Source of the DNA: Halorhabdus sp. CBA1104
Lineage (GTDB): Archaea; Halobacteriota; Halobacteria; Halobacteriales; Haloarculaceae
Direction: 5' to 3'
Length of the DNA stretch: 64,000 bases
Assembly: GCF_009690625.1 (NCBI RefSeq)
Contig: NZ_CP033878.1
Location: forward strand, 124,001-188,000
The position numbers were made by a program, and so were the translations under genes. Shown here one piece after another: positions 59,562 through 61,508 of this stretch; position 1 is the first letter of the stretch, and each line of letters starts with the position of its first letter. Below the pieces are notes generated by a model that was given only the letters and a program-made list of their open reading frames with translations, had not been told where the DNA came from and ran no database searches.

Positions 59562-60098
59562 ATGCCACGCACAGAACTACAGCTACCTGACGAAGTCAGT
59601 GCCGAGGTCGACCACCTCGAACTCACTGTCGAGGGACCCGAAGGCAGCGTGACGCGTCGACTCTGGTATCCGGATGTCACTGTCGATGTCGAAGACGAGA
59701 CGATCGTCATCGAATCGACCGAGGACGACGCCGAGACGATGTCCACGTTGGGGACCTTCGAGAGCCACGTGCGCAACATGTTCCACGGCGTCACCGAGGG
59801 ATGGACCTACGAGATGGAGGTCTTCTACTCACACTTCCCGATGCAGGTGCGCGCCGAGAGCGAGGAAGTCGTCATCGAGAACTTCCTCGGTGAGAAGGCT
59901 CCCCGCCGGACGCCGATCCACGGCGAGACCGACGTCGAGATCGACGAAGAACAGATCACGCTCCGTGGTCCCAGTATCGAAGACGTCGGCCAGACGGCCG
60001 CGGATATCGAACAGCTCACCCGTGTCACCGACAAAGACGTCCGGGTGTTCCAGGACGGCGTCTACATCACGGACAAACCGAATCGAGGTGAGGTCTGA
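59562..60098 (+). CDS. rpl6: Ribosomal protein uL6
   Basis: This 178-aa two-domain protein: [80 protein letters not shown]. It lies at the factor-binding centre with 23S rRNA domain VI. The TGA shares a base with the L32e ATG. Confidence 0.98.
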
Positions 60099-61066
60099 TG
60101 GCTGAGGAAGAACCTACGGAACTTACGGACGTCGGCGGCATTGGCGACCAGACGGCCGACGCATTGGCCGAGGCCGGATTCGAAACTGTCGACGATCTGC
60201 GAGCAGCAGACGAATCGGCACTCACGGAGGTCGAGGGAATCGGTAACGCCCTGGCGGCCCGGATCAAGGCCGACGTCGGCGACGTCGAGGTTGCAGACGA
60301 CGCCGATGCCGAGGTCGAAGACGCTTCGACCGACGAGGACGAGTCCGCAGGCGACACGGAGACACTCGCGGACTACGAGGGGCTGACGGATATCAGCGGC
60401 GTCAGCGAGGAGACGGCAGATGCCTTGAGCGAAGCTGGCTTCGAGACTGTCGAAGCCGTCGCACGCGCCGATCAGGACGCCCTTACCGAGGTCGAGAGCG
60501 TCGGAAACGCTCTGGCGGCCCGGATCCAGGCTGACGTCGGCGAACTCGACGTCTCGGAGGCCGAAGCTGCCGACGTCGAGGAGGCAGGAGAGGCCGCTGA
60601 GGAAGCCGAGGATGTCGAGACTGAACTGCAGCCTCGTGGGCTGGTCGACAAGCAGCCGGATCTCTCCGACGAGGAGGCCCGGCTGCTGGTCCAGCGCCGC
60701 CGCGAAGGCAAGCCGCAGTTCAATCGACAGGACTACCACAAGAAAAAGCGCGTGCCGACGTCTTGGCGACGACCGCGGGGCACCCTCTCGAAGCAGCGCC
60801 GCGGCATCAAGGGCAAAGGCGACACGGTCGAGGCCGGGTTCCGCACTCCCAAGGCGACTCGCGGATTGCACCCCTCCGGCTTCGAGGAAGTTCGCGTCCA
60901 CAACGTCGACGATCTCGACGGTGTCGACGGGGATACCCAAGCGGTGCGCATCGCCTCGAAAGTCGGGGCACGCAAGCGCGAACGGATCGAAGAGCGCGCC
61001 GAGAGCGAGGAGATTCGCGTACTCAATCCCACCTACGTCGAAGTCGAGGTGAGCGACGATGAGTGA
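60098..61066 (+). CDS. rpl32e: Ribosomal protein eL32 with duplicated N-terminal helix-hairpin-helix domain
   Basis: This 322-aa protein is far longer than the usual haloarchaeal L32e (about 240 aa). Two closely similar helix-hairpin-helix units, about residues 8-61 ([20 protein letters not shown] ... [17 protein letters not shown]) and 96-148 ([20 protein letters not shown] ... [17 protein letters not shown]), lie in tandem with acidic linkers. The L32e core follows from about 185 ([39 protein letters not shown]). In Haloarcula one such unit is found. Overlaps rpl19e by 8 nt. Confidence 0.97.
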
Positions 61067-61508
61067 TCTCAGCGCACAGAAGCGACTGGCGGCAGACGTT
61101 CTGGACGTCGGGCAGAACCGCGTCTGGTTCGACCCCGAGGCACAGGGCGAAATCGCGGATGCGATCACCCGCGAGGACGTCCGTGACCTGATCGACCAGG
61201 GCATCATCCGCACGAAAGAAAAGAGTGGGAACTCCCGCGGTCGGGCCAAAGAGCGCCAAGAGAAGCGCGCCTACGGCCACCAGAAGGGACACGGGTCCCG
61301 GAAGGGTTCCGCGGGAGCCCGACAGAACGAGAAAGACGACTGGGTGTCCCGCATTCGGGCCCAGCGCGAGCGGCTGCGAGAACTCCGGGACAGTGGCGAA
61401 CTGTCGCCGACGGAGTATCGCAAACTGTACGATCAGGCCAGCGGCGGCGAATTCGACGACGTCGGTGACCTGAACCGATATATCGACGACCAACACGGTG
61501 ATCAGTGA
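61059..61508 (+). CDS. rpl19e: Ribosomal protein eL19
   Basis: This 149-aa protein reads [60 protein letters not shown] and [20 protein letters not shown]. It reaches from 23S rRNA to the small subunit. Its stop overlaps the L18 ATG by one base. Confidence 0.98.

Follow-up and report, generated by a model that had tools for sequence, protein, structure and literature searches.

An old duplication of the N-terminal (HhH)2 domain of ribosomal protein eL32 in Halorhabdus and its patchy distribution among haloarchaea

The described protein closest to the one considered here is ribosomal protein L32e of Haloarcula marismortui (NF009401/PRK12766; PDB 1JJ2, 1S72, 4V9F). The two proteins share the core, the place in the ribosomal gene cluster and, at the N-terminus, a similar (HhH)2 domain with an acidic linker. 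In crystals of the H. marismortui 50S subunit, 142-144 of the 240 residues of the eL32 chain have coordinates, so the N-terminal arm is not seen in these structures. A sequence-only reading of the locus had described the H. marismortui protein as about 240 aa long with one HhH unit. The length (240-241 aa) and the single unit are correct, but that unit holds two HhH motifs. The usual haloarchaeal eL32 is about 235-245 aa long and has one unit, whereas the protein described here has two units and 322 aa. A literature search found no paper describing the eL32 HhH domain, which is weak evidence, since most subscription journals were beyond its reach.

Other proteins carry related domains. The acidic repeats AR1 and AR2 of bacterial NusA (TIGR01954) resemble the eL32 arm: both consist of acidic dual-HhH domains in tandem, joined by flexible linkers. 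AR1 and AR2 have near-identical structures and 31.5% mutual identity, are flexibly linked and recruit proteins (PMC7171158, PMC6614801), and AR2 binds its partner via its last helix (PMC7171158). The NusA repeats sit on a transcription factor, whereas the eL32 units sit on a ribosomal protein. NAD-dependent DNA ligase LigA uses an (HhH)4 region on DNA. This region resembles the eL32 arm in having two (HhH)2 domains per chain, and both eL32 units align with it, more weakly than with NusA (E 6e-3). Unlike those of LigA, the eL32 units lie on a disordered acidic linker without a predicted fixed arrangement. The N-terminal domain of RadA/Rad51 has the single (HhH)2 fold of an eL32 unit and is equally acidic in this genome (-10), but it occurs as a single copy fused to a recombinase.

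The window is the whole 64,000-nt stretch of DNA that was analysed (G000:C1:124001-188000), part of the 2.63 Mb single-contig genome of Halorhabdus sp. CBA1104. Of the named relatives found, Halorhabdus salina is closest, with 88% identity in the best segment. The eL32 gene (60098..61066, +) encodes 322 aa and was recognised by gene order, Pfam and NCBIfam NF009401/PRK12766. Residues 205-310 match PF01655 with 127 bits (cut-off 25; 4e-37), and the protein scores 499 bits with NF009401/PRK12766, for which the curated cut-off is 239. Its upstream neighbour in the ribosomal gene cluster is uL6 (59562..60098, +), whose stop codon overlaps the eL32 ATG in the sequence TGATG. The downstream neighbour, eL19 (61059..61508, +), overlaps the end of eL32. 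Genome-wide, eL32 has one full match, this gene between uL6 and eL19, and one lesser match, at 39%, which covers an HhH stretch alone and lies in an 888-aa frame. The ribosome-binding core (residues 174-322; 60617..61063, +) includes the Pfam match and is 86% identical, over the aligned part, to the H. marismortui eL32 that has coordinates. From this identity we infer that the window's eL32 is incorporated into the 50S subunit.

Between the start codon and the core lie two related units, each followed by a linker. Unit 1, the extra N-terminal (HhH)2 domain (residues 8-61; 60119..60280, +), is followed by linker 1 (residues 62-94; 60281..60379, +), in which 16 of 33 residues are acidic and none is Lys or Arg. 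Unit 2, the core-proximal (HhH)2 domain (residues 95-149; 60380..60544, +), is followed by linker 2 (residues 150-173; 60545..60616, +), with 11 acidic residues among 24. Membership of the (HhH)2 group was tested with PF14520 (HHH_5), a 57-position model with a cut-off of 27 bits; unit 1 scores 57 bits and unit 2 scores 47 bits. Each unit thus has the layout of this group, in which a short helix joins two HhH motifs within about 55 residues. In local alignment, residues 9-75 and 96-162 are identical at 40 of 67 positions (60%). The BLOSUM62 score of this alignment is 213, compared with a mean of 47 (sd 7.2, maximum 78) in 1000 shuffles, which bears out the tandem duplication proposed by the sequence-only reading. 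The duplicated segment spans an HHH_5 domain, which has two HhH motifs, and runs on into the beginning of the acidic tail. Unit 1 has two hairpins, each recorded as a 13-residue segment, with intact hairpin glycines (GIG and GIG). In unit 2 the hairpins are reduced to GVS and SVG, with loss of two glycines found in most relatives.

The duplication is old, as judged from the 71% identity of the repeat at the DNA level and from the identities at the three codon positions (76/88/48%). Identity at third positions between unit 1 and unit 2 of the window gene is 0.51 against a background of 0.52, which rules out a recent duplication or gene conversion in this gene. Third-position identity is higher in a few genes elsewhere (0.72 in L113 and 0.76 in L154). 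The extra unit was found in all seven sampled genomes of the window's genus, which rules out an assembly artefact. In this genus, the arm gained its second (HhH)2 domain when the 5' portion of the gene was duplicated in tandem and in frame, an old event.

An AlphaFold2 model of the whole protein packs the five helices of each unit into a compact domain with pLDDT above 90, the helices of unit 1 spanning residues 9-11, 17-25, 31-36, 39-43 and 50-60. Residues 64-85 in linker 1 and 153-174 in linker 2 have pLDDT below 50, and the whole-protein pTM is 0.31. When the N-terminal part was predicted alone, the units reached mostly pLDDT 85-95, residues 63-86 of the linker again fell below 50, and the pTM was 0.39. 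Since the linker is predicted to be disordered and the pTM is 0.31-0.39, no fixed mutual arrangement of the units is predicted. In structure comparisons, a single unit matches, along its full length, the C-terminus of Hel308/Hjm (Z 10.1, rmsd 1.2, 55 residues), the N-terminal domain of RadA (Z 9.3-9.9, rmsd 1.3-1.8, 57-61 residues) and AR2 of NusA (Z 8.5-8.8). These are modest Z values, and (HhH)2 is a common fold. The models thus describe two separate (HhH)2 domains on a disordered acidic linker, without predicted packing against each other. The sequence-only reading had assigned one HhH motif to each unit and had the two units pair into a single DNA-binding (HhH)2 domain. The tandem layout and the hairpin signatures agree with such pairing. 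The fold prediction nevertheless contradicts it, and it is very improbable, given that each unit has two hairpins and alone superposes on complete (HhH)2 domains, that the linker is disordered and the pTM low, and that single-unit orthologues already have the full domain. Modelling of the N-terminus, which that reading had proposed as a check on (HhH)2 packing, gave two domains in place of one.

A comparison of HhH count across haloarchaea, which the sequence-only reading had called for, shows that the two-unit form is not universal. In the family of the window's genus, 143 of 146 genomes gave an eL32 match; about half were scanned with an HMM of the unit and the rest were judged by alignment ranges. 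Two or more units are present in about 49 of the 143, with the contig-end and range-judged cases less certain. The clean counts exclude genes with runs of N, at contig ends or with broken frames (L135, L143, L148, L150, L167). Outside the family, a class sample of 391 genomes contains at least 13 two-unit genomes, of which 10 belong to family f8, two to f10 and the remainder to one genus of f4. Those genomes of f2, f3, f5, f6, f7, f9 and f11 that were examined showed no two-unit form; part of the class-sample genes was scanned, which makes the outcome a lower bound. Overall the two-unit form is patchy and accounts for about one in seven of the haloarchaeal species sampled. Among named genera, it occurs in Halorhabdus, Halorientalis (with one exception), Halovenus and Salinarchaeum; all named genomes examined from Haloarcula, Haloferax, Halorubrum, Natrialba, Halorussus and Halobacterium have a single unit.

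Two genomes of one genus encode eL32 with four units (L165:998-2458, -, 487 aa; L152:998-2431, -, 478 aa). In both, three almost abutting units are followed by a long acidic linker and the core-proximal unit. Extra units that had been suspected in very long frames (L146, L167, L241 and others) were rejected; these frames hold single units with acidic tails or upstream read-through. In Halovenus salina, eL32 is also matched in part a second time, close to the opposite end of the contig (G100:C1:19149-20099 and G100:C1:3316560-3317336), probably because the contig is an unclosed circle with overlapping ends. In one 90% complete genome, eL32 is split over two frames (G030:C1:1119216-1119921), probably by a sequencing frameshift.

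A single N-terminal unit is also found on eL32 outside the class, where several of the phylum's families have it (L203-L210, L213, L214, L217 and L219, and weakly L212). Other non-haloarchaeal families of the phylum have eL32 without an N-terminal unit. Since single units occur on eL32 outside the class, the single-unit arm predates the haloarchaea, and on this sequence evidence the single-unit form is ancestral. The core-proximal unit is nearer to single units than the N-terminal unit is in 53 of 55 two-unit genes, with identities to single units of 64-78% for the core-proximal unit and mostly 50-68% for the N-terminal unit. Because this holds in all but two genes, the N-terminal unit is taken as the addition, and unit 2 is, by sequence similarity, the orthologue of the single unit of other haloarchaea.

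The number of times that a unit was added is less easily read. A tree of uL6, the eL32 core and eL19 (470 columns) calls for 13 changes between one and two or more units, and at least 12 when weak forks are opened, which requires repeated gains, repeated losses or both. The tree of the units themselves (54 columns) groups the N-terminal units by lineage, and a single clade of N-terminal units appears in none of 200 bootstrap trees; that short alignment cannot decide for or against a single origin, and the AU test does not reject such a clade (p 0.17). Recurrent duplication with some losses is the favoured reading, although gains and losses are not separable in these data.

Is the second copy of any consequence to the cell? 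It could be a matter of nearly neutral length variation, in which the arm is a tolerated solubility or assembly tail whose copy number drifts by slippage and recombination, and the second copy has no specific role. The patchy distribution with its many changes agrees with such drift, as do the length of linker 1 in relatives (13-106 aa, with 55% acidic residues and 0.4% Lys/Arg), the presence in other genera of N-terminal tails that are long and acidic but lack a second unit, and the degenerate hairpin glycines of unit 2. However, the fold and sequence of unit 1 are kept throughout the genus. Mean pairwise dN within the genus is 0.140 for unit 1, 0.090 for unit 2, 0.055 for the core and 0.386 for linker 1; divided by median dS, the values are 0.146, 0.153, 0.087 and 0.51, respectively. 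Both units are under purifying selection (dN/dS of about 0.15), with linker 1 far less constrained; its non-synonymous change is about three times faster than that of unit 1. The copy has also been kept long enough for its third positions to reach background. Drift of a tail without a role seems somewhat unlikely, and the extra eL32 unit is a real, old and selectively kept duplication within a known protein family.

A kept domain could instead hold nucleic acid. The arm would then grip rRNA, mRNA or DNA near the ribosome, as an assembly aid or a link to the nucleoid, with a firmer grip from the second copy. The fold is shared with the nucleic-acid binders RadA, Hel308/Hjm, LigA and Pol iota, and most relatives of the unit keep the hairpin glycines, but unit 2 in the window has lost two of them. 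Unit 1 has a net charge of -10 with 3 Lys/Arg and unit 2 a net charge of -11 with 2 Lys/Arg, and neither has the basic phosphate-contacting surface of DNA-binding (HhH)2 domains, which speaks against the non-specific DNA binding that the duplication had first suggested. Across genes, unit 1 averages -10.2, unit 2 -7.1 and single haloarchaeal units -7.0, so the average added unit is more acidic than the average core-proximal one. Haloarchaeal proteins are acidic in general, and for this reason charge alone says little. HhH stretches elsewhere in the window's genome range from -15 to +3; those of the DNA-acting proteins RadA (-10) and a Hef-like helicase (-8) are acidic, but those of a UvrC-like protein at -1 and one helicase-like ORF at +3 are less so. 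Units outside the class have a mean charge of -0.2 with 7.9 Lys/Arg, and some have a Lys-rich linker; with such nearly neutral units, RNA binding could have been the ancestral role. Taken together, the charge of the units argues against strong nucleic-acid binding, although such binding may still occur, and a nucleic-acid arm seems an unlikely role for the haloarchaeal protein.

By analogy, the eL32 arm looks more like an arm for docking proteins than like a DNA binder, and docking is the leading mechanism, with a probability of roughly 0.4. Among the observations behind it are the likeness to NusA, the conservation of the second hairpin and last helix, and the co-isolation of ribosomal proteins with RNA polymerase. 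The closest analogue of the two-unit arm is the AR1-AR2 tandem. The only PDB chain matched by the arm with E below 0.001 is E. coli NusA in the transcription-translation coupling complex 8y5l (E 3e-4, 139 columns). The likeness is one of fold and linker layout; the NusA-repeat model TIGR01954 gives 32.0 bits on eL32, under its cut-off of 48.15, and W490 and F491, the aromatic residues of AR2 recognition, are absent from the eL32 units. The most conserved stretch of the eL32 unit is a 13-residue segment formed by the second hairpin and the last helix. A study of Haloferax volcanii isolated 21 ribosomal proteins together with tagged RNA polymerase subunits; it did not find NusA or NusG with the polymerase, and the text consulted names no link to eL32 (PMC8576121). 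The physical coupling of transcription and translation in Haloferax makes the transcription machinery one candidate partner.

Haloarchaeal eL32 consists of the ribosomal core and a flexible acidic N-terminal arm ending in an (HhH)2 domain. We infer the steps from fold to partner as follows. The arm would extend outward from the large subunit, much like a fishing line, and its acidic HhH domains would dock weakly onto protein partners via the second hairpin and last helix, and a second copy would raise avidity or add a partner. In doing so, the arm would act like AR1-AR2 of bacterial NusA. The recurrent change in copy number is of more interest than DNA binding. Whole-domain gain is seldom seen in ribosomal proteins. 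In eL32, a core ribosomal protein, the number of folded, tethered domains shifts repeatedly within one archaeal class (one, two or four), with signs of selection, making this protein a natural experiment on the role of flexible ribosomal arms.

A second ribosomal protein carries a unit of the eL32 type. The uS3 protein of genus g43 (family f8) carries a long acidic tail followed by a C-terminal HHH_5 domain (L253:950-2077 in G272; L254 in G335, read directly; G184 and G206, judged by match range). Among the uS3 matches listed for the class sample, only those of G272, G184 and G206 extend to the end of the HHH_5 region. The best score of the G272 uS3 unit, 186, is with eL32 unit 1 of other g43 members; the HhH stretches tested from the window's genome score 58-95. 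This similarity suggests copying between the eL32 and uS3 genes, which are about 5 kb apart. The uS3 unit is consistent with a module that is portable and of use on the ribosome. A broader reading would have the acidic HhH modules on eL32 (one, two or four) and on uS3 (in one genus) be a ribosome-borne archaeal counterpart of the NusA repeats. In this role they would tie RNA polymerase or other factors to ribosomes during translation, and evolution would have adjusted their copy number again and again; as a whole, this broader reading is quite improbable. Acidic linkers with C-terminal HhH units occur on other proteins as well. Two large P-loop ATPase-like proteins of family f8 (L255 in G335:C15 and L256 in G313:C25) have two C-terminal HhH units after acidic linkers, so that tandem HhH tails occur a second time among the f8 genomes. 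In the window's own genome, a 173-aa frame (L230; G000:C1:1539333-1539497, -) combines a short N-terminal part, a long acidic linker and a C-terminal HhH domain.
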